Shown here piece after piece: positions 7,166 through 63,950 of a stretch of DNA of 64,000 nt. The stretch comes from Fundidesulfovibrio agrisoli (GTDB lineage Bacteria > Desulfobacterota > Desulfovibrionia > Desulfovibrionales > Desulfovibrionaceae). Position 1 is the stretch's first letter; every line of letters begins with the position of its first letter. The DNA is taken from positions 1-64,000 of the forward strand of contig NZ_JAKZKX010000005.1 of assembly GCF_022808715.1 (NCBI RefSeq), written 5' to 3'. The notes under the pieces were generated by a model. It had not been told where the DNA came from. It saw only the letters and a list, made by a program, of their open reading frames with translations, and ran no database searches. The position numbers and the translations under genes were made by a program.

Positions 7166-7275
7166 GATGATTCCTCCTGGGCGGTGCGAACTCGAAAGAA
7201 GGCCCCTATGCCATACGTAACGGTGCTGTCAACAATGAAGGCTCTCAGGGGCGAAACGGAAAGAAGGCAATGGAG

Positions 7276-7314
7276 GCCTCCGGCGGCCAAAGGAACTTCG
7301 TTCCTTTGGAATCC
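7276..7314 (-). repeat. Intergenic hairpin repeat, copy B (reverse)
   Basis: GCCTCCGGCGGCC (7276-7288) followed by a perfect 10-bp hairpin (7287-7309, TTC loop) and GGAATCC. It is the reverse complement of the family consensus. The 276-bp gap 7166-7441 holds this repeat and no supportable gene. Confidence 0.75.
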
Positions 7315-7441
7315 CTTTCCGCTTCGCGACCGTTTTCGGCCCGGCGTCCCTGGCCCAGTGTCCCTTGACGGCGTACCCGGCGACCCGGCGGGACTCCCGG
7401 ACCGGCTTGCCCGCTGCCGGGGCATGCGCTAGCGGGGAGCC

Positions 7442-8074: not shown

Positions 8075-8110
8075 GCGGAACACCTCGCCTGGCCTGGGCG
8101 GCTTTTCCCC

Positions 8111-8143
8111 GGCCTCTCAAGGAACTTCGTTCCTTTGGAATCC
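8111..8143 (-). repeat. Intergenic hairpin repeat, copy C (reverse, lacks the GC block)
   Basis: The hairpin AAGGAAC-TTC-GTTCCTT (8119-8135) and GGAATCC match copy B closely, but the GCCTCCGGCGGCC block is replaced by a short CCGGCCTCT. Together with copy D it forms an inverted pair around about 80 bp. Confidence 0.65.
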
Positions 8144-8224
8144 TTTTCCGTTTCGCGCCCATCATCGGCCCCGCGTCCCCGGGCAGGCCCACAGGCCAGA
8201 CTCAAACACTCAATGCCAAACCGG

Positions 8225-8260
8225 GGTTCCAAGGGGCGAAGCCCCTTGGCCGCCGGAGGC
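8225..8260 (+). repeat. Intergenic hairpin repeat, copy D (forward)
   Basis: GGTTCC, a 9-bp perfect hairpin with GAA loop (8229-8249), then GGCCGCCGGAGGC (8248-8260). This is the closest copy to the consensus. It lies 29 bp from the stop of the convergent C_GCAxxG_C_C gene. Confidence 0.75.
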
Positions 8261-8288
8261 CTCCTCCCCAAAATACCACCGCACCATC

Positions 8289-11725: not shown

Positions 11726-12511
11726 GTCGCCTTCCGGCCCCTGAAAACGCCGTCCGGTTCGTTTCCCGCACGAGGATAATCACTTTTTTAATGTTTCATT
11801 CAAGCTGGTTGCGTGCATTTGGAACAAAAGCGGCCCCTCTACAAAAGCTACTAATTTTTTCAAATACCCTTGAGTAGGAAGAAGAGACGCCTGTTCCTTC
11901 CGGGCGGATGGGAGAAGAACCTAAGTGCGGCCCAGCCTCCCGGATGAAAACCCGCGAGAACTGGACGGGGCCTGTCCGGGCTGTGCCGGTGCAGGACATC
12001 CCTCCAGACCGGAACATTCCAAAAATGGTGGCCCTGGTTTCTTTTTCCCCTTGCAGGCAGGGCGGTCCCTGCGCGGGGAATGAAAAGAGCTCCTAAAGGG
12101 AGAGAGGCAATCAGAAGAAGGCGCATGCGCCGGACCGGCGCCGTCCGTCCTTGGGCAGATTCCCCGTATCGCCCTGACCCCACCAGTGAGTCATCAGGTC
12201 GCACGCGCGCAATGGTCGAACAGGCCGGGGAGCGGATCTCCGGTTGCGAGTCCTCCGGGCGCGTGCGCGCCATGGAACCCTGAGCCTGACGAAGCCTCCG
12301 GGAGGGTGTTCGAGGCGGTGTTTCCCGTGATCGGGCGAAGCTGAAGTCGTCGTGTTGTTTATGACATGGCGCGCCCCAGGGGCCTGCGCCTAAGGCTCTC
12401 GCGTCCTGTTTTCCGGGCCGGGGAGGGCGGCCTTGCGGGGCTTGGCCCGGTCCCCGCGGCGGGCTGGCGCTTCGGCCCGCCAACCCGCGCCATTGCTTGA
12501 TCCACAAGGGC

Positions 12512-12539
12512 TTGTGCTTTGGTTTTTTTTCCGTATACT
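12512..12539 (+). promoter_or_regulatory. dnaN promoter
   Basis: TTGTGC (-35, 12512-12517), a 16-bp T-rich spacer, and TATACT (-10, 12534-12539), predicting a start near 12546. The spacing and the TTTGGYTTT spacer text are shared with the promoter of the island ORF at 60076-60279. Confidence 0.65.
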
Positions 12540-12543
12540 CCCG

Positions 12544-12589
12544 CTTGCCCCAACTATGATCCAGACAATTCCCGACCATAGCCGCCCAA
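12544..12589 (+). repeat. dnaN 5' leader, duplicated inside the island
   Basis: This 46-base leader, beginning CTTGCCCCAACTATGATCC, is identical to 60292-60337 on the minus strand. The Shine-Dalgarno region (AAGGAGAT versus AAAGGAGAT) and the first codons also match closely. A short inverted repeat (CTATG 12554-12558 / CATAG 12577-12581) lies within it. Identity starts almost at the predicted transcription start. Confidence 0.9.
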
Positions 12590-12602
12590 GGAGATGACCC
12601 CA

Positions 12603-16186
<3,584 letters not shown>

Positions 16187-16216
16187 GTTGTGCCCGGTGG
16201 AGCAGGGCGGGGGAGA

Positions 16217-16256
16217 GCCTCCGGCGGCCAAAGGGCCTTCGGCCCTCTGGACTCCC
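16217..16256 (-). repeat. Intergenic hairpin repeat, copy E (reverse)
   Basis: GCCTCCGGCGGCC (16217-16229), then a hairpin around CAAAGGGCC-TTC-GGCCCTCTGG and GACTCCC. It faces copy F about 60 bp further on. Confidence 0.75.
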
Positions 16257-16318
16257 TTATAGGTCTTTGCTTCCTGGAACACTTCCGGCTGATCGAGAGA
16301 ACTTTGATTATTTAAAAC

Positions 16319-16356
16319 GGGATTCCAAAGGGCGCAGCCCTTTGGCCGCCGGAGGC
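16319..16356 (+). repeat. Intergenic hairpin repeat, copy F (forward)
   Basis: GGGATTCC, a perfect CCAAAGGGC-GCA-GCCCTTTGG hairpin, then GGCCGCCGGAGGC ending at 16356. Copies E and F are inverted relative to each other and could pair into one long cruciform between gyrB and gyrA. Confidence 0.75.
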
Positions 16357-16408
16357 CTCTCCCAAACCGCACCCCGCCCCCGGCGCCGAACACCATACGA
16401 GGCATCAC

Positions 16409-52240: not shown

Positions 52241-52376
52241 CTCCATCGCCCCCGCATGCCCTCCGCACGCCACGGGCGCGCTCTTGAGGTGCGCGCCGTG
52301 GTGCTCAGGCACATGCCGCGCCCGCCTTGTCGCCCTCTCAACCGACGCGTCCGCCCAACCCGCAGCGAAGCAATGC

Positions 52377-52416
52377 GGGAGTCCAGAGGGGCGAAGCCCC
52401 TTTGGCCGCCGGAGGC
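52377..52416 (+). repeat. Intergenic hairpin repeat, copy H (forward)
   Basis: GGGAGTCC, hairpin AGAGGGGC-GAA-GCCCCTTT, then GGCCGCCGGAGGC ending at 52416. It is followed 33 bp later by the reverse copy I. The 464-bp gap 52183-52646 holds these repeats and no gene I can support. Confidence 0.75.
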
Positions 52417-52449
52417 CCTCTTCAAACACGCGGTAGCACCCCGGGGAAA

Positions 52450-52485
52450 GCCTCCGGCGGCCAAAAGGCTTCGCCCTTTGGATTC
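52450..52485 (-). repeat. Intergenic hairpin repeat, copy I (reverse)
   Basis: GCCTCCGGCGGCC (52450-52462) with hairpin AAAAGGC-TTC-GCCCTTTGG and ATTCCC. Together H and I form a divergent pair, the opposite arrangement to pairs C/D and E/F. Confidence 0.75.
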
Positions 52486-52646
52486 CCTTTCCGGGATGCT
52501 TGGGGCGTGGGGAATCTTTGGCTGGCGCGACCCCATGCCTGGAGCCGCGAGCCCTCGGGCAAAGGCGCATACCCCCGTCCCCAGGGCAAAACGTGCGGCG
52601 GCCCCGGCCTCCCGGCGTTGCTCGTTATACCCCTCCCGGTCGCAGC

Positions 52647-53565: not shown

Positions 53566-53643
53566 GTCCCCATCGTCTAGCCTGGTCCAGGACGACGGCC
53601 TTTCACGCCGTTAACAGGGGTTCAAATCCCCTTGGGGACGCCA
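53566..53643 (+). tRNA. tRNA-Glu (anticodon TTC), island attachment gene
   Basis: 78 bases including CCA. Acceptor GTCCCCA/TGGGGAC. The anticodon loop CTTTCAC reads GAA/GAG with TTC; T arm AGGGGTTCAAATCCCC. Its 3' half (from 53597) is repeated perfectly at 62500 and with one change at 63862, so it is the target of integration; the present gene keeps a complete sequence because the element supplies the 3' half. Confidence 0.97.
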
Positions 53644-53649
53644 AAGAAA
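53597..53649 (+). repeat. att site 1 (attL, in tRNA-Glu)
   Basis: 53 bases from the anticodon stem to nine bases past the acceptor arm, identical to 62500-62552. It marks the left end of segment 1. Confidence 0.95.
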
Positions 53650-53652
53650 AAC

Positions 53653-53689
53653 AGGGACTTACGGAAGAAACGCCGTAAGTCCCTTTTTC
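53653..53689 (+). terminator. Terminator behind tRNA-Glu (element-supplied)
   Basis: AGGGACTTACGG/CCGTAAGTCCCT stem (53653-53684) followed by TTTTTCTTT. Its sequence differs from those after att2 and att3, so it came with the most recent insertion. Confidence 0.9.
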
Positions 53690-54067
53690 TTTCCCCACAC
53701 TCTTCCCCACACGCCCACGGTTTTCCGCACAAAACCCCACACCGGTGGGCAGGGTGGTTGTCCCTATTGCTGGTCACTTTTTACCCCCAAATTAATACAA
53801 AACTACGCGTGGAATTACGCAGTCGGTCCAGATTTGGGGACGCCCAGACATTTGCCCCCCCTCCCCGATTTTCATTTTGCACGCGCGAAGAAATGGGAGC
53901 GCATCCGGTCTACGGCACGACGGCTCCAGACATTTGACCCGCCCCTTGTCCGTTCTGTCCCGCTCCTGTGCCTAGGCTGCCAGCGACCAACTTTTACCAA
54001 CCTCGCCCTGTCTATGCAGATGCGGGGGGATGGAATCGTTCCGTATAGTTATGCACAAGCCCCGAAT
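53690..54067. other. Non-coding left end of the island
   Basis: Holds the arm repeat and no supportable gene. The sequence is AT-richer than the chromosome in places. The short frames seen have no ribosome site or recognisable domain. Confidence 0.5.
53691..53711 (+). repeat. Left arm-type integrase site
   Basis: The 21-base sequence beginning TTCCCCACACTCTTCCCC (two TTCCCCACA units, 12 bases apart) is identical to 62373-62393 near the right end. Tandem units close to each att core are what integrase arm-binding sites look like. More CCCCACA-like units follow to about 53745. Confidence 0.75.
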
Positions 54068-54319: not shown

Positions 54320-54945
54320 CTAGCCGATCTTTGCCTTGATTTGAGCCATCATGTCCCGGCCCGTCGTGGCTTCTTTCATGGTCGCCCACCAGAAGAGGGC
54401 CTTGCCGTCACTTTTGCTTTCCCACAGTTCGCCCATGTTCTTCTTGTCCTGGTCTCCAGCCTCCAGGTGCGCGCCCTTGTATTCCACAACCATGATCCGG
54501 CCATCTTCGAGCAGGGCCACGAAATCCGGGTAGAATTTATGGCCGTTGGAAAGAGGCAGCCAGAATGACGTCTTGGGGAAGCTGTCCAGGTTCCGTACCC
54601 ACCATTTCACCTTGGGGTGTGCGTCAATGATTTGGGCGCACTGGAACTCTTCCCCCTTGTTTTTCAGGTCGCGGATCACGGGGTAGAAGTGCTTGCGGAA
54701 ATCGAAGCGCCCGGCGTAGGCGGGCAGGTTTTGCGGGTAGGCGTCCGGCAGGAAGCGGAAACCGTAGTCGAAGCGGGTTTCCACCTTGGCTTGCGGCGCG
54801 AAGAGCAGCGTTTGATAGTCTCCTTGAGGGATTGGAGGCGCAGCCGGGCGATCTTGTTTTTCAGGGCCGCCGCAAGCGCGTATTTGGCCCGGCACCCCCT
54901 CTCGCACTCCAGGACGGTCGCGCCAAGCCGCGCCCGTAACGTGAC
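54320..54945 (-). pseudogene. Frameshifted C-terminal remnant of a type III-like restriction enzyme
   Basis: The open part (to about 54825) encodes ETRFDYGFRFLPDAYP, YPVIRDLKNKGEEFQCA and a PD-(D/E)xK nuclease core, PDFVALLEDGRIMVVEYKG, typical of the C-terminus of Res/type III-like DEAD-box restriction subunits. Upstream of 54825 the matching text (ECERGCRAKYALAAALKNKIARLR) is in another frame, showing a frameshift. The helicase part is missing altogether. So it is a decayed defence gene. Confidence 0.75.
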
Positions 54946-58259: not shown

Positions 58260-59711
58260 CTAAGCCGCCTTCAGCTTCTTGACCATCCGGTGAACGGTGG
58301 ACCGGGCAATGCCCGTTTCCTCGGCAATATCCCGGACCGTCATGCCTTCGGAATGCAGCGCCTGCACCTGGGCAAGGCGCACGTCCTCTATGTCCTTGCA
58401 ACGCCAGACCAGGGCCTCGCCTTGGGCATCAAGCGTGGCCTCGAAACTCTTGGCTTCATCACCGCAGATGCCCCGCGCCTTTTCAAGATGGACCTCGAAG
58501 CGCGCGCCCTCTTCCTGCCGGTAGTCCGGCGGACGTTTCAGGGCTATCACGGTGTCGAGCACGTCTTCCCGGCTGGACGTGCCCCGCTGCTGGCCGCCCT
58601 TGCCCGCGTGGTGAATCAGGCAGACGCTCAGGCCGCGCTGGCGCAGGCCAAGCATCCACTCCTGTACGGGCAACCAGCCTTCGGCGTCGTTTTCCCGGCC
58701 AGCACGCGCCAGTGTGGCCAGGTTGTCCAGAATAACCAGGTCCACACCTTCCAAGTGGGGCAGCAGAGCCGCCTGCCCCTCGGGAGTAGCCAGGTTCGGC
58801 ATTCGCGCTCCGATGCCTTGGAGGTCCGGCGTGATGAAGCGCAGCCAGTCCGGGCCGGGCAGCTCCTGTTCAAAACCGGTCACGATGGCCGCCAGGCGTT
58901 CCTGCATGGTGCTGGCGGGCATCTCACCGTCCAGGTAGAGCACGCGGCGGGGCTGGGGAGCCTGCCAGCGGAACACCCGCTGCCCGGACGCCACGGCATA
59001 GGCCAGCGTCAAGGCCACGAACGTCTTGCCTACGCCGCGCGGAGCGTAGATCATCACGAGGCCCTGGCGTGGAATGACGGGGTTCAGGAAGTATTCCCGC
59101 TGCGGCAACTGCATGGAAAGGAGCTGCGCTGCGTCCGCCACCACGAGGCGGGGCTTGCCCGCCACGACGGCGGCTCCGAGGTTGCAGGCCATTTGAGCCA
59201 GGTCGGGCAGGTTGGCGGAAAGATCATGGCCGCCGTCATACAGCGCGAGGCCCACGCCGATGACCTTCCGGCGCGCGGTCATCTCCTTGAGAATCCCCAG
59301 ATGCTCCGGGAAGTTCCCCAAGCAGCCCAGGCTTGCGATTTCCGCCAGCCGAACGGAACCGCCCACGGTGTCCAGTCTGCCCAGGCGGGACAGCTCATCC
59401 GCCAGGGTCAAGAGGTCTACGCCCTTGCCGTTGCTGCGCAGCGCTAGCATCGCCCCGTAGATGGAGCGATGGTCGGGCGCGTGGAAGTCCTCGGGTGTCA
59501 GGCTCTCCGCAGCCAGGGTCAGGCGCTCCGGTTTGAGGATGGAGGCGGCCAGCACTGCGGCCTCCGCATCCGGCGCGGCAGGGGGCGACTTGGATAGGTC
59601 TATTGCCTTGACTCGTGAACAGGGCTCCGGCAGAAAGAAGGTGTTGCAGCTTCTGTTTTCAGCACTACCCCGGTGGCCGCCGGGGTTTTGCTTTTTCTGG
59701 GCGCTACTCAT
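58260..59711 (-). CDS. RepA-like replication ATPase with DnaB N-domain and C-terminal HTH
   Basis: About 483 residues. Residues 45-155 are a DnaB-N-type domain (LTPEDFHAPDHRSIYGAMLAL). A RecA/KaiC-fold ATPase follows with Walker A YAPRGVGKTF (about 222-231), Walker B VDLVILDN, and ARFEVHLEKARG. The C-terminus is a helix-turn-helix: SEGMTVRDIAEETGIARSTVHRMVKKL. It is likely a plasmid-type replicative helicase/initiator of the element. The ATG at 59711 overlaps the AlpA-like gene (8 bases); a GTG at 59720 is an alternative. Confidence 0.85.
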   Translation of the reverse strand: MSSAQKKQNPGGHRGSAENRSCNTFFLPEPCSRVKAIDLSKSPPAAPDAEAAVLAASILKPERLTLAAESLTPEDFHAPDHRSIYGAMLALRSNGKGVDLLTLADELSRLGRLDTVGGSVRLAEIASLGCLGNFPEHLGILKEMTARRKVIGVGLALYDGGHDLSANLPDLAQMACNLGAAVVAGKPRLVVADAAQLLSMQLPQREYFLNPVIPRQGLVMIYAPRGVGKTFVALTLAYAVASGQRVFRWQAPQPRRVLYLDGEMPASTMQERLAAIVTGFEQELPGPDWLRFITPDLQGIGARMPNLATPEGQAALLPHLEGVDLVILDNLATLARAGRENDAEGWLPVQEWMLGLRQRGLSVCLIHHAGKGGQQRGTSSREDVLDTVIALKRPPDYRQEEGARFEVHLEKARGICGDEAKSFEATLDAQGEALVWRCKDIEDVRLAQVQALHSEGMTVRDIAEETGIARSTVHRMVKKLKAA

Positions 59712-59961
59712 GGGCAGCACCCTTGCCAGGGTTGATCCGGTGTGCGTCCAGGAACGCGTCCAGGTCTTCCAGACGATAGCGGACGCTGCGCCCGATTTTC
59801 AGGTAAGGCGGGTCTTGCCGCTCGAAGCGGCGCTTCTGAAGCGTGCGGACGGAAAGGCCCAGGTGTTCGGCGGCTGCGCGTTCGTTGAGGGACTTGTGGG
59901 GGCTGGTCATACGGCGCTCCTGTTGTGTGTTGTCAGCGGATTCTGTCTGAAATGCCTTCAT
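59704..59961 (-). CDS. AlpA/excisionase-like helix-turn-helix protein
   Basis: 85 residues from MKAFQTES, with AGGAGG 8 bases upstream of 59961. The winged HTH reads NERAAAEHLGLSVRTLQKRRFERQDPPYLKIGRSVRYRLEDLDAFL, the AlpA/MerR-like excisionase pattern. Such proteins steer excision or activate integrase transcription. It is the first gene of the replication operon and overlaps the ATPase gene by 8 bases. A strong terminator immediately precedes its ribosome site. Confidence 0.85.
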   Translation of the reverse strand: MKAFQTESADNTQQERRMTSPHKSLNERAAAEHLGLSVRTLQKRRFERQDPPYLKIGRSVRYRLEDLDAFLDAHRINPGKGAAHE

Positions 59962-59979
59962 TTCTTTTTCCTCCTGAAC

Positions 59980-60024
59980 AAAAAAAGCCCGGCTAAACCG
60001 CATGGTGTGCGGTTCAGCCGGGCT
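59980..60024 (-). terminator. Strong terminator upstream of the AlpA-like gene
   Basis: A 17-bp stem (AGCCCGGCTGAACCGCA/TGCGGTTTAGCCGGGCT, one G-U) with a 5-base loop and TTTTTTT on the minus strand. It ends the 67-aa ORF's transcript and stands only 19 bases before the AlpA-like start, so it may also act as an attenuator. Confidence 0.9.
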
Positions 60025-60075
60025 GTAGGTGGCCTTTTGGGCGCTACGGTTGCCGGACGCTAAGGCCGTGTGGCC

Positions 60076-60279
60076 TTATGTCTGTTGGAATATCACAGGT
60101 TGTTCTTTTGGCGTTCCAGATGCCATGTGAACGCCGAATAGGATCATGCCCGTGAATCCTCGCGCTCTCGCGTTGAGCAGAACGCCGCCAACATTCTCCA
60201 GTACAGGGATTAGCCTGGGGTGTATCCCAGAAAAAACGTCATGAGACAGCCCTGTGGGCTGCTTGTCCTTGATGGACAT
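60076..60279 (-). CDS. 67-residue island protein with a dnaN-type leader
   Basis: ATG at 60277-60279 with GGAG 8 bases upstream. No family recognised; it is mostly hydrophobic in the middle (LIPVLENVGGVLLNARARGFTGMILFGVHMA), perhaps one short amphipathic or membrane-contacting stretch. The start is striking: the promoter spacing, 46 leader bases, the ribosome site and 12 of the first 15 coding bases match dnaN (ATGTTCGTCAAGGTC versus ATGTCCATCAAGGAC). The rest of the ORF shows no dnaN similarity. It was probably built on a captured dnaN control region. Confidence 0.65.
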   Translation of the reverse strand: MSIKDKQPTGLSHDVFSGIHPRLIPVLENVGGVLLNARARGFTGMILFGVHMASGTPKEQPVIFQQT

Positions 60280-60291
60280 TAAAAATCTCCT

Positions 60292-60337
60292 TTGGGCGGC
60301 TATGGTCGGGAATTGTCTGGATCATAGTTGGGGCAAG
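60292..60337 (-). promoter_or_regulatory. Copy of the dnaN 5' leader
   Basis: 46 bases identical to 12544-12589 on the opposite strand, followed by AAAGGAGAT. It starts within 2-4 bases of the predicted transcript start in both places. Confidence 0.9.
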
Positions 60338-60340
60338 AAA

Positions 60341-60368
60341 AGCGTAACACAGGGAAAGCCAAAATCAA
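60341..60368 (-). promoter_or_regulatory. Promoter of the 67-aa ORF
   Basis: On the minus strand TTGATT (60363-60368), 16-bp spacer, TACGCT (60341-60346). Spacer length and the TTTGG-TTT text resemble the dnaN promoter. Confidence 0.55.
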
Positions 60369-60394
60369 GTACCCTTGTACCAGGGCAAAATGCG

Positions 60395-60430
60395 GTTGTA
60401 ATAATCTGAAATCACAGGTTATTATGCAAC
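60395..60430. promoter_or_regulatory. Imperfect inverted repeat in the island control region
   Basis: GTTGTAATAATCTG (60395-60408) and CAGGTTATTATGCAAC (60415-60430) pair with small mismatches around a 6-base centre. It lies 26 bp upstream of the -35 of the 67-aa ORF and may be an operator. The rest of 60280-60783 holds no other supportable gene. Confidence 0.4.
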
Positions 60431-60783
60431 ACCGTCTACTTGTCGCTACAAAAAATATCATTAAATATCGAAATGTTACGCGTGTGGATTGGGTGGCAAT
60501 AGCGTGCGGATCATGAACCTCGTATTGGGCGAGTTTTGGAGTAATATCCTGAAATAAAATAGTTTAAATTTCAAGGTTGAGGTTCTGGCGGCAAGGAAAC
60601 CTTGTCGGGGGACACGCTCGATTTGTCGTTTCAAGTCCGTCAATGATGAAGACGGCGGGGATAGACTGCACTTAACGTGGGGGCCGCTATCCCCCTTGGG
60701 GCTGTCAGGTTGGTAGCGTGCTGAGAGAGACTGATGTTCAAGGAGGTAGGACGCCTCACAAACCCTACACGCACCGCAACGCC

Positions 60784-61038
60784 TCACCGCCTTTCATGGG
60801 GGGCCTTTGCTTCGTCGTAGTGGTCGTATGCGTCCATTTCCAAGGAATCCCAATCGGACGCGAGAGCCTCCAGGCGGGCACGCGTCTCCTTGGCTTCGAG
60901 CACGGTCAGCCCGAACACCTCAACCGGCCTACCTGCGGAGCGTTCCGCCAGCCGGTCCTGGATGGCCTTCCACTCCTCAACTGGGATCAGCACGGCCAGT
61001 TTGTTCCCGGCGTCATCCGTCACGTACTGGATGCTCAT
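60784..61038 (-). CDS. Orphan antitoxin-like protein
   Basis: 84 residues from MSIQYVTDDAGNKLAVLIPVEEWKAIQ, the opening of many type II antitoxins of the Phd/YefM/RelB-like small-protein kind that pair with RelE/ParE toxins. The C-terminal half (EALASDWDSLEMDAYDHYDEAKAP) is acidic, as in antitoxin toxin-binding tails. No toxin-sized ORF follows in either direction, so it is an orphan or the toxin is lost. The ribosome site is weak (GTGGGGGC). Confidence 0.6.
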   Translation of the reverse strand: MSIQYVTDDAGNKLAVLIPVEEWKAIQDRLAERSAGRPVEVFGLTVLEAKETRARLEALASDWDSLEMDAYDHYDEAKAPHERR

Positions 61039-61120
61039 TGCGTTGCCCCCACTTGGGTGCTGCGGCAATCCCGTAGGAATGCCGCAGGCCCTTCATGGTC
61101 TCAATTCCCCATCACGCTCT

Positions 61121-62329
61121 CTATCGGTCCTGGCTGCGGCTGTCCATATTGACCACGTTGGCGCTCCTGGCTGCGTCCTGCCCCTTGGCGGCCAGTTGTC
61201 CAAAGATATCCCCGGCTACGTCCGAGGCCCGCTTCATGGCTTCATCCCGCAGGTGGGCATAGCGCTTGGTCATGAGCGCGTTTTTGTGGGTGAGCAGCTT
61301 TTGCAGGGCGTACAGGTCCACCTCGCCGCTCGAAGCCAGGGTGGAGGCGAACAGGTGCCGCAGGCCGTGCAGGGGTCGAAATTCAGGGGGAAGCCCGGCC
61401 CGGGCCTTGATCTTGTTCGAGGCAACCTGGATGGTCCGCCGCTGTCCGCCGCCCTGGCCGGGGAACACAAACGGGCTGCCCGGCGTGGGGGAGTGTTCCT
61501 CAAGAACCCTGCGGGCCATCGCGTTCATGGGTATCTTCTGGCTCTTGCCGCCCTTAGGCGCGCGGATGTGGATGAAGCCGCGCTCGAAATCCAAGTCGCG
61601 CCACTCCAGCTTGAACAGCTCTCCCCGGCGCATCCCGGTGTAGAGGGCCAGCAGCATGAGGCTCCTGGCCTGGAGGTTTGTTTCCGCCTCCAAAGCCTGG
61701 AGCAGGCGGGCCAGCTCCTCCGGGTTCAGGTCTTCCGTGGTTTCGTTGTCCACCAGGGGGATGGTGATGTGCAGCTTGCCCGGTCCCGGCGCTGCTGCAA
61801 GGCCCTTGATCTTCCCGAAGCGGATGATGCGCTTGAGCAGGGCCAGCACATGCTTGACCGTCTGGGGGCTCTTGGACTTGAGCAGCTTTACCCGCAGGCG
61901 GTCCACTTCCAGGGTGATGATCTGGGAGGGCTCCTTGTCGCCGAAAGGGGTCAGCAGATACTTCTTGAAGCGGGAATCGTCGCTGCGCAGGGTGTGTGCG
62001 CCGGGGCGCTCGGGATGATGCGCCTTGTACTCTTCCCAGAGCTTGGCCAGGGTCCAGCGTCCGGCCTCGGCATCTCGCGCGGCCCGCTCCGCCTCTCGCC
62101 GCCGTGCGTTGGATTCCTCCATGCCTTCCATACGCCGGGCGCGTAGGGCGTTGGCCTTCGCGGGGGTCATGTCGTCCTGGAACTGCCGCCCCGCCTTTTC
62201 CTCTACCAGCTTCCCGTCGCGGCGGTAGCGGATGTAATAGATGCGCTCAGGCTTGCCGGTGGCGACCGACTTCGCTTCGATGAAGGTTACGCCGGGGTAC
62301 TGCGTCTTGATGCGTTTAGCGGCAGGCAT
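61121..62329 (-). CDS. int: Tyrosine recombinase/integrase of segment 1
   Basis: 402 residues from MPAAKRIKTQYPG (AGGAG 7 bases upstream). An Arm-DNA-binding-like N-terminus (about 1-90), then an SAM-like core-binding domain (about 90-200). The catalytic domain has Arg in LYTGMRRGELFKLEW, HGLRH (LHGLRHLFASTL), His in LTHKN and Tyr in MTKRYAHL. All four catalytic landmarks are present, so it is probably active. It stands 170 bp from att site 2, as is usual for integrases that target tRNA genes. Confidence 0.93.
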   Translation of the reverse strand: MPAAKRIKTQYPGVTFIEAKSVATGKPERIYYIRYRRDGKLVEEKAGRQFQDDMTPAKANALRARRMEGMEESNARRREAERAARDAEAGRWTLAKLWEEYKAHHPERPGAHTLRSDDSRFKKYLLTPFGDKEPSQIITLEVDRLRVKLLKSKSPQTVKHVLALLKRIIRFGKIKGLAAAPGPGKLHITIPLVDNETTEDLNPEELARLLQALEAETNLQARSLMLLALYTGMRRGELFKLEWRDLDFERGFIHIRAPKGGKSQKIPMNAMARRVLEEHSPTPGSPFVFPGQGGGQRRTIQVASNKIKARAGLPPEFRPLHGLRHLFASTLASSGEVDLYALQKLLTHKNALMTKRYAHLRDEAMKRASDVAGDIFGQLAAKGQDAARSANVVNMDSRSQDR

Positions 62330-62372
62330 GACAGGCTCCTTTCGGTGTTGCCTGGGAGAGCCGTCAAATTTC

Positions 62373-62393
62373 TTCCCCACACTCTTCCCCACA
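62373..62393 (+). repeat. Right arm-type integrase site
   Basis: Identical to the 21 bases at 53691-53711, placed between the integrase start and att site 2. The region 62394-62499 is otherwise AT-rich and non-coding. Confidence 0.75.
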
Positions 62394-62499
62394 GGCAAGC
62401 TGTAAATAGAGGGTAGGGTGGAGAAGTCAAGAGTAAATAAAATCAATGATTATCGTAGATATGACGGCAGTGGAGAAGCGCAGGAAAATGTATGGTTAT

Positions 62500-62552
62500 G
62501 GCCTTTCACGCCGTTAACAGGGGTTCAAATCCCCTTGGGGACGCCAAAGAAA
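62500..62552 (+). repeat. att site 2 (tRNA-Glu 3' copy)
   Basis: Perfect 53-bp direct repeat of 53597-53649. It is the right end of segment 1 and the left end of segment 2. Confidence 0.95.
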
Positions 62553-62554
62553 TC

Positions 62555-62584
62555 AAGGGTCTACGAAAGTAGGCCCTTTTTTCT
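62555..62584 (+). terminator. Terminator after att site 2
   Basis: AAGGGTCTAC-GAAA-GTAGGCCCTT stem (one G-U) followed by TTTTTTC. Different from the hairpins after att 1 and att 3. Confidence 0.85.
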
Positions 62585-62615
62585 TGGCCCTGGAAACAGA
62601 TTGTGGATACAGATT

Positions 62616-62825
62616 TTAAGCCTGCTGGATCAAAGCCAGTGGGCATTTGTTGTTTTGGCACACAGGGCCGCGTTTCTGAAAAACGTCGTTGAGCACGATA
62701 GCGGCCCACCGCAGGTTATGCATGTACTTGGCTGCCGTGGTCGCTGACGTTCGCCGAAGGATAGCCTGCATGTTATCCAGGGGTACCCTAGCCTTATCAA
62801 GGAGACTGGCGCTCAGATACAGGAT
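62616..62825 (-). pseudogene. C-terminal remnant of a tyrosine integrase
   Basis: Minus-strand text LSASLLDKARVPLDNMQAILRRTSATTAAKYMHNLRW matches the last part of integrases, with the nucleophile Tyr in KYMHNL; the Arg-His-x-x-Arg part is absent. It lies just right of att site 2, the position expected for the integrase of segment 2. Confidence 0.6.
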
Positions 62826-62863
62826 GGCGGGCCACGATCGGCACTGCAACTGAAGGTGTAGTG

Positions 62864-63634
62864 TTAATCCCTCCGACGATCTCTCATTCGTGCAACTAGT
62901 GATTGAATGTTTTGATGAAAGTCTCCTTCTGAAAAATCCTCCCATCTCAAGTCGTAGAGCAGCATCTTGATGTGAGCAGGCATGACCGACATTAAATATC
63001 TTGGGTCGACTAGCGTAATCGGAATAATATAATCCATATAATTATTTTTAGCAGCGTACTCTACTGCAACTTCAATCTCTGCGATTGTAGCTGTGGAGAA
63101 GATGGAAGTTTGAGTTAGTAAAAATAAGACGAAACCGCAGTCAAGTGCCTCACGAATCAAGGATGTCATTGATTTGGAAAAGTCAGTTCCAAAATCTAGA
63201 AAACTTTTTAAAATATAGTCGTGCTTTTCGAGCTCTTTAGCGATATTAACGCCAACATCCAGATCATCCCTTGTATGATTAATATAAACAGTGGCACGCT
63301 TGATCAGTCTGTTAATCTTGTCAATTTGATCATGAAGTGGGCCGTTCAGGTCAATGGCTTCATAATACTTCCCAGTAAGTTGTTTTATATAAGAGACTTC
63401 ATTCTGAACCCATTTTGATTTTTGTGCATTCTCACTGTCACACAAAAGAAACCATGAGCGTGATTCAATCTCAAGCTTTATCAATCTGTCAAGCTCTTGG
63501 TCATCATCCATGCATTTAAGAAAGAATAAAAGCGGTCTGTTCCCTTTTTCTTCAAGATAGTTGCGGACTTTCCGGACCTTATTCCAGTCCTTATTAGAGT
63601 GAGACAGAAATATCCAGGCACCGTCTTTTTCCAT
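62864..63634 (-). CDS. Tandem TIR-TIR domain protein
   Basis: 256 residues, GAGGTGA 6 bases before the ATG. The first TIR is about residues 5-85: WIFLSHSNKD, WFLLCDSENAQKSKWVQNEV with the candidate catalytic Glu79. The second is about 114-215: VYINHTRDDLDVG, GFVLFLLTQTSIFSTATIAEIEV with Glu186/188. No other domain or membrane segment is present. The DNA is clearly AT-rich compared with the chromosome. TIR proteins of this kind are NADases in Thoeris, CBASS and other phage defences; which one this fits is unknown. It is isolated, with no ThsA- or cyclase-like partner. Confidence 0.75.
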   Translation of the reverse strand: MEKDGAWIFLSHSNKDWNKVRKVRNYLEEKGNRPLLFFLKCMDDDQELDRLIKLEIESRSWFLLCDSENAQKSKWVQNEVSYIKQLTGKYYEAIDLNGPLHDQIDKINRLIKRATVYINHTRDDLDVGVNIAKELEKHDYILKSFLDFGTDFSKSMTSLIREALDCGFVLFLLTQTSIFSTATIAEIEVAVEYAAKNNYMDYIIPITLVDPRYLMSVMPAHIKMLLYDLRWEDFSEGDFHQNIQSLVARMRDRRRD

Positions 63635-63707
63635 GGAGTCACCTCTTCCGCTTCTAACGGTATATATCTACATCTCTGGTCAGTTAAGTGCAATTACAGG
63701 CTTTGCA

Positions 63708-63809
63708 GTCTAATTCTTGAGTAGCTGGTCGGCTATGGCTACTACTTGAGATTGCGTATGGAGACGTGCGTAGGCCGTATATATGGCCCTATGGTCTCTG
63801 TGTCCATGC
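63708..63809 (-). pseudogene. Second integrase remnant, C-terminal
   Basis: On the minus strand GHRDHRAIYTAYARLHTQSQVVAIADQLLKN resembles the last 32 residues of a tyrosine integrase, with Tyr in AYARL. A stop precedes it. It lies 50 bp left of att site 3. Confidence 0.5.
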
Positions 63810-63861
63810 AATTAATCGGAATCGGTAGCTAATCAAGTGCGAATTGGGTGGGACAACATTT

Positions 63862-63905
63862 CTTTCACGCCGTTAACAGGGGTTCAAATCCCCTTCGGGA
63901 CGCCA
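63862..63905 (+). repeat. att site 3 (diverged tRNA-Glu 3' copy)
   Basis: 44 bases, 43 identical to the tRNA-Glu 3' half (one change in the acceptor arm, CTTCGGGAC for CTTGGGGAC). It is the outermost island boundary seen and presumably the original tRNA end. Confidence 0.88.
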
Positions 63906-63913
63906 CGAAAATC

Positions 63914-63950
63914 AGCGGCTTACGCCACAAGCGTAAGCCGCTTTTTCTTT
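63914..63950 (+). terminator. Terminator after att site 3
   Basis: AGCGGCTTACGC/GCGTAAGCCGCT perfect 12-bp stem, loop CACAA, then TTTTTCTTT. Probably the ancestral terminator of the tRNA operon. Nothing further is supported to 64000. Confidence 0.92.

Follow-up and report, generated by a model that had tools for sequence, protein, structure and literature searches.

The window analysed here comprises positions 1-64,000 of contig NZ_JAKZKX010000005.1 (assembly GCF_022808715.1, Fundidesulfovibrio agrisoli), and the source genome is referred to as G000. It carries dnaN, the gene for the DNA polymerase III beta clamp, and an integrase-bearing island at tRNA-Glu. The leader of dnaN recurs in this island before an orphan open reading frame (ORF) of 67 amino acids (aa), and the half of the control region that adjoins it upstream recurs before a 133-aa ORF in a second element on another contig of the same genome, C8. 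Judged from the sequences, the two mobile elements may carry captured dnaN control modules that would each express a single cargo gene, a reading to which we assign about even chances. The following features lie at the two leader sites.

12544-12589, + strand: dnaN leader, 46 bases equal to the island copy; the common stretch continues to 12595 with one indel
60292-60337, - strand: island copy of the dnaN leader, 46/46 bases
60285-60291, - strand: its continuation, an extra A followed by the ribosome site GGAGAT
60076-60279, - strand: orphan 67-aa ORF, preceded by the leader copy
59986-60024, - strand: strong intrinsic-terminator-like site after the 67-aa ORF, with a 17-bp stem and a T run

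A sequence-only reading of this DNA had reported a 46-base identity between the dnaN leader and the island and had regarded chance as excluded. Both statements were confirmed. Positions 12544-12589 on the + strand are exactly identical to the complement of 60292-60337, and the 45-nucleotide (nt) core, with up to 3 mismatches allowed, was present at two places only in the window and in none of 100 shuffles. The identity extends past the 46 bases: after the extra A in the island the alignment runs on through GGAGAT, giving 53 aligned columns at 98% identity and bearing out the near-identical ribosome site that had been described. The first 15 coding bases of dnaN and the 67-aa ORF are equal at 12 positions, as had also been stated, and beyond the ATG at 9 of 12. 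A coding match of at least 9/12 past the ATG was seen for 3 of 598 ribosome-site-plus-ATG matches (loci of at least 7 kb; the same start may count twice), two of which reach 12/12 and are taken to be dnaN of G003, another genome of the genus. A genome search of G000, in which all 10 candidates were scored, found the leader only at dnaN and in the island, and a 27-mer of it was absent from viral_contigs and genome_contigs, which speaks against a common dispersed repeat. The further claim that the copy spans exactly the transcribed leader depends on a predicted transcription start, the identity starting 4-5 nt after the -10 hexamer.

dnaN lies within a dnaA-dnaN-gyrB-gyrA cluster (Pfam), and alignment with genus members places its start at 12603 and not at the upstream ATG 12594. 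Promoter and terminator sites given in this work are predictions; the dnaN promoter was not flagged by the consensus scan.

12481-12543, + strand: dnaN upstream control module and promoter, with AACCCGC edge, CACAAGGG palindrome over the -35 hexamer, T-run and predicted -10 hexamer
12512-12517 and 12534-12539, + strand: predicted dnaN promoter, -35 TTGTGC and -10 TATACT, spacing 16 bp
12603-13760, + strand: dnaN, DNA polymerase III beta clamp (Pfam, homologues)

The genus comparison covered seven genomes, G000 and six others, one of which (G006) is only 66% complete. In G003, the closest member to G000 with a 99% identical DnaN, the promoter, leader and start of dnaN were the same at 91/91 bases. 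From AACCCGC to the first codons the two genomes are nearly identical, while the DNA directly upstream is strongly diverged. No change was found in the 59-base leader (12544-12602), against differences at 24 of the 188 fourfold sites of dnaN; at this simple fourfold-site rate, the chance of 0 changes in 60 sites is ~0.0003. Because the leader is unchanged against this rate and the upstream DNA is strongly diverged, the dnaN control region, ~115 bp long, appears by sequence comparison to be a bounded constrained unit between G000 and G003. The piece in C8 starts at the left edge of this block; the leader end of the block is the part present in the island. The dnaN leader is mostly different in the other five genus members. 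The word CCCGACCAT within the leader was retained in four of those five and thus in 6/7 genus genomes overall; it may be a regulatory site of dnaN itself.

The genome search of G000 with the leader also hit C8; the stretch of C8 that carries the second element is designated L061.

C8:37627-37676, - strand: 50 bases corresponding to 12482-12530, from the half of the dnaN control region that lies upstream of the leader
L061:7089-7490: 133-aa ORF, 137 bases beyond the C8 piece and in the same direction

The 50 bases are 98% (49/50) identical to the dnaN region of G003 and 96% identical to that of G000, in the control-region search of which the best 4 of 7 candidates were scored. They contain the upstream palindrome, the -35 hexamer and the T-run, i.e. 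the half adjoining the one kept in the island. The piece shares with G003 the word GCACC and an extra A, which are missing in G000, G002, and G006, and shares ATTGC with these three against G003, although the sites are few. It sits 3' of an integrase gene whose product is 35% identical to the island integrase, and the proteins of the element include phage-type primase and ERCC4 nuclease types. By our own reading a tRNA-like fragment lies on the integrase side of the element, where ARAGORN reported no whole tRNA. Use of the C8 piece as an attachment site was considered and dropped; the tRNA-like fragment lies on the other side of the integrase gene, and no element was seen at dnaN. A leader half in C8 in the form of a diverged dnaN leader was also rejected, the similarity not being significant (p 0.30). 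Among 297 genomes, 5 others encode distant relatives of the 133-aa protein; these adjoin integrase-type genes in G001 and G002, and relatives also occur on plasmids pDCAR2 and pGSUB1, marking a small-protein family of mobile elements. The 67-aa and 133-aa proteins do not align with each other, and neither matches the DNA clamp family. Near-identical regions thus stand before non-homologous genes, with 53 aligned upstream columns for dnaN and the 67-aa ORF and 50 for dnaN and the 133-aa ORF. As a separate observation, the 793-aa primase-like protein of C8 (L061:2811-5192) gave a PADLOC match (E 1e-11) to a DnaG-like partner of defence reverse transcriptases, the partner role being taken from the name of the PADLOC model.

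The island ORF had also been credited with a dnaN-like promoter.

60338-60378, - strand: island promoter region, with ACAAGGG and TTG at -35, TTTGG and a weak -10 TACGCT
60368-60363 and 60346-60341, - strand: hexamers TTGATT and TACGCT, spacing 16 bp

The identical 16-bp spacing claimed for the two sites is right by position. Compared in register, the island region equals the G003 dnaN promoter at 20/41 bases; the fraction of positions with at least this agreement was 0.0007 in a background of 711,454 and 0.0014 in a composition-matched background. It equals the C8 piece at 19/41 bases (background 0.0020), and its agreement with the G000 dnaN promoter, 15/41, was not significant (background 0.061); the similarity is thus supported by two of the three references in this test. 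Gapped alignments of the island promoter with the dnaN promoter were no better than shuffles (p 0.10-0.22), and ~1% of background segments align as well. The claimed resemblance therefore holds for the in-register comparison with the G003 allele and not for gapped alignment, and the view that the island promoter is a diverged dnaN-type promoter is weakly supported by sequence comparison.

The direction of transfer was approached through the surroundings of the copy, which include the following island features.

53597-53659, + strand: tRNA-Glu 3' end, attachment-type repeat copy 1
62500-62562 and 63859-63921: further copies of the tRNA-Glu-end repeat
61121-62446, - strand: tyrosine integrase of the island
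59704-60003, - strand: HTH_17/excisionase-type (AlpA-like) regulator
58260-59720, - strand: DnaB-N and AAA_25 helicase of the island

A related element of G003 also carries the tRNA-end repeat, and its integrase is 64% identical to that of the island, but the place between integrase and AlpA is taken by a 159-aa ORF, and the leader copy is missing. Because G003 has the leader at dnaN and its related element has no copy, the leader probably passed from dnaN to the island. When 199 family genomes were queried with the island leader, matches at E 0.001 were obtained only in G000 and G003. In the stretches compared from G002 and G004, tblastn found nothing similar to the 67-aa ORF, and the leader had no long match. 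Host positions 1-53400 of the window were compared with nine G000 stretches: the island, the element on C8, and seven neighbourhoods of integrase-type genes or of repeats of the tRNA-Glu type. At E <=0.01 there were four matches; the strongest two are the dnaN pieces (1.6e-18 and 9e-16), and the other two span 25-28 nt (E 0.002). Among the best 40 of 102 candidates, window positions 59500-62600 matched in their own genome only themselves, dnaN, the tRNA-end repeats and three minor sites (one near another integrase-type gene on contig C51, an island-internal repeat and one 23-nt word). Short matches were set aside as probable chance: 16 nt between G002/G006 dnaN and the G003 element, 21 nt in L095 and 15 nt in L096.

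Of the two possibilities that had been raised for the island, capture or mimicry of dnaN control, capture is supported by the leader at dnaN of G003, the copy-free G003 element and the other half of the region in C8. Short-patch recombination with the host dnaN region of this species group would have put fragments into the elements, the C8 donor perhaps being a G003-like dnaN allele. In the island, a diverged dnaN-type promoter would precede the acquired leader, which would have brought its ribosome site and probably also the first codons to the 67-aa ORF; the C8 element would have received the palindrome, -35 and T-run half before the 133-aa ORF. The parts that matter for expression would thereby have been retained, and each captured module could act as a ready-made host-type expression signal for one accessory gene in an integrated element, in the manner of a prophage moron. 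A wider proposition, that elements of this group independently graft different modules of the dnaN block onto accessory genes, which would be switched with the host replication machinery, appears quite unlikely.

Several results weigh against capture of working modules. Capture alone leaves unexplained that the leader is identical yet the promoter diverged. The island -10 hexamer matches the consensus at 3/6 positions, and neither the island promoter nor the dnaN-like piece of C8 was flagged by the promoter scan. In C8 the scan placed another promoter-like site at 7550-7523 of L061, between the piece and the 133-aa ORF; being nearer to the ORF, it speaks against the piece as main promoter. On the strand of this ORF only a weak terminator-like site was found (6920-6901). 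The upstream DNA of the 133-aa homologues was not dnaN-like in the comparisons made, which left out the own dnaN of G148 and that of the Geoalkalibacter plasmid's host. No family match was obtained for the 67-aa ORF, and its structure model, one long helix of low confidence (mean predicted local distance difference test score 70.5, predicted template modeling score 0.35), is uninformative. One weak match outside its own genome among 247 genomes, in G147 and with one stop inside, was not believed, nor was a match on a plasmid at E 0.3; without believable relatives, the ORF may not be a gene. Its GC content at third codon positions (GC3), 0.56, is below the 0.76-0.81 of the island regulator, helicase and integrase, but two other island ORFs are also low (0.59 and 0.66). 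The leader 27-mer and 20-mer were absent from viral_contigs, and the 27-mer was absent from genome_contigs, a search from which near records may be left out. No second copy of the dnaN region turned up in the six other genus genomes in the searches made. Own-dnaN queries of G002 and G004 over the seven genus genomes returned only 18-28-nt matches. For G001 and G005, whose own dnaN regions were excluded from the genome-wide queries, checks around 8 and 6 integrase-type genes, respectively, gave no match at E 0.1. This distribution would argue against any general rule.

In our ranking capture comes first, a common regulator is the main rival, and a neutral relic is next. The main rival is regulatory mimicry, in which a common trans-acting factor binds at dnaN and at the element genes and selection keeps the copy exact. 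Its candidate binding sites are the -35 palindrome CACAAGGGC(A)TTGTG and/or the leader pair CTATGATC-N12-GACCATAG, and we consider mimicry through these sites possible but rather unlikely. It would agree with the location of the retained modules inside the block constrained between G000 and G003. It would also agree with the distribution of ACAAGGG-N0-3-TTG, which has 7 occurrences in 580 kb with both strands counted (window plus loci of at least 7 kb), 4 of the 7 at -35 of the G000 and G003 dnaN promoters, the island promoter and C8, although this motif was chosen after the alignment had been seen. The DnaA-box-like word TGATCCACA beside the -35 hexamer, one mismatch from the consensus, points the same way, but the window contains 43 sites of this kind against 28.8 expected, and both the word and the palindrome are absent at dnaN of the other five genus members. 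Mimicry is further weakened by the different halves kept in the island and C8 and by a leader that, except for CCCGACCAT, is mostly unconserved in the genus. Nor did RNA structure lend it support. At the gathering score, Rfam recognized two tRNAs only in the window and no match in the leader copy, and the folding energy of the leader was not unusual (z-scores -1.39 and -0.30). A structured cis-regulatory leader RNA was rejected on these grounds and on the poor conservation of the leader, and the same results fail to support the earlier suggestion that production of the 67-aa protein may follow sliding-clamp synthesis or depend on a regulator that binds the leader.

It is unlikely that the pieces are neutral relics, host fragments swept in by illegitimate or relaxed recombination with no particular role, with the 67-aa ORF being spurious. 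The orphan state of this ORF, the weak promoter consensus and the restriction of copies to 1/7 genus genomes, as far as searched, would fit such an origin. It accounts poorly for two pieces that come from one ~115 bp block, both before an ORF in the right orientation, and whose limits follow functional ones (left edge of the constrained block, predicted start, ribosome site), or for the terminator that closes the island unit. An antisense RNA from the + strand of the island, pairing with the dnaN leader and ribosome site and lowering clamp synthesis, is highly improbable. Apart from the one-base indel, RNA transcribed across 60285-60337 in this direction could base-pair with the dnaN leader, but 59900-60285 contains no + strand promoter-like site, the sole + strand site (60396-60425) lies beyond the copy, and ribosome site, ORF start and terminator all fit the - strand. 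An exact 46-base inverted repeat can also mislead short-read assembly; an assembly chimera, which the sequence-only reading had itself named as a refutation, is nevertheless scarcely credible, because a single G003 contig contains an identical run of dnaN promoter, leader and gene start, so that the dnaN side holds and the island junction should be right too, and because the C8 piece is on a different contig.

Mobile promoters, or promoter propagation, a subject of Matus-Garcia et al. in 2012 (cited in PMC8049555), are reportedly upstream sequences that recur almost unchanged before non-homologous genes of a genome. G000 resembles this in its near-identical upstream DNA before non-homologous genes, the promoter activity of the copied region being putative; it differs in having two partial copies only, both in integrated elements, with dnaN identifiable as the source. 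The dnaN case is a variant of the transfer of regulatory regions, a known kind. In horizontal regulatory transfer, alternative intergenic regions are switched upstream of the same gene in different isolates (PMC5890482). The alleles in C8, which at a few sites hint at dnaN of another lineage, may be similar; the leader, identical in G000 and G003, carries no information on such a history. In G000, by contrast, the control region of an essential gene lies in mobile elements before non-homologous ORFs, with different halves kept. Prophage morons (PMC7067206) are comparable in that a single accessory ORF in an integrated element is missing from an element with a related integrase, and different in that the putative expression signals here derive from a host replication gene. 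A terminator of its own, as expected of a moron, was found for the island only (17-bp stem and T run), C8 having the weak site; absence from related elements was also observed, one of which (G003, 64% identical integrase) was compared closely. Titles and abstract openings on regulatory transfer, mobile promoters, morons and captured host promoters described no dnaN control region in a mobile element. The origin of host-working expression signals in newly arrived mobile genes is an open question. In this case the likely donor can be named, and it is an essential replication gene. Since complementary parts of one ~115 bp control unit lie in two elements of a single genome, capture, module function and any replication coupling are open to direct reporter testing, and the dnaN control block offers a defined bait for a regulator of clamp expression.

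Some further features of the window were recorded. The repeat TTCCCCACACTCTTCCCCACA occurs near both island ends, at 53691-53714 and 62373-62396, and may represent integrase arm sites. The 195-aa ORF at 54320-54907 is probably a remnant: the PADLOC model of a type III restriction enzyme is covered only in its final fifth (732-892 of 898). A TIR-domain protein (62864-63634) gave a Thoeris ThsB-type PADLOC match (E 1.7e-8); its gene lies in a 1.36-kb unit (62500-63921) between tRNA-Glu-type repeats 2 and 3 and resembles small defence-type cargo. Palindromic repeats of the REP (repetitive extragenic palindromic) type containing GCCGCCGGAGGC were found at 7275-7353, 8105-8263, 16210-16363, and 52365-52490, and the GCCGCCGGAGGC motif is also present upstream of dnaN in G046 and G158.
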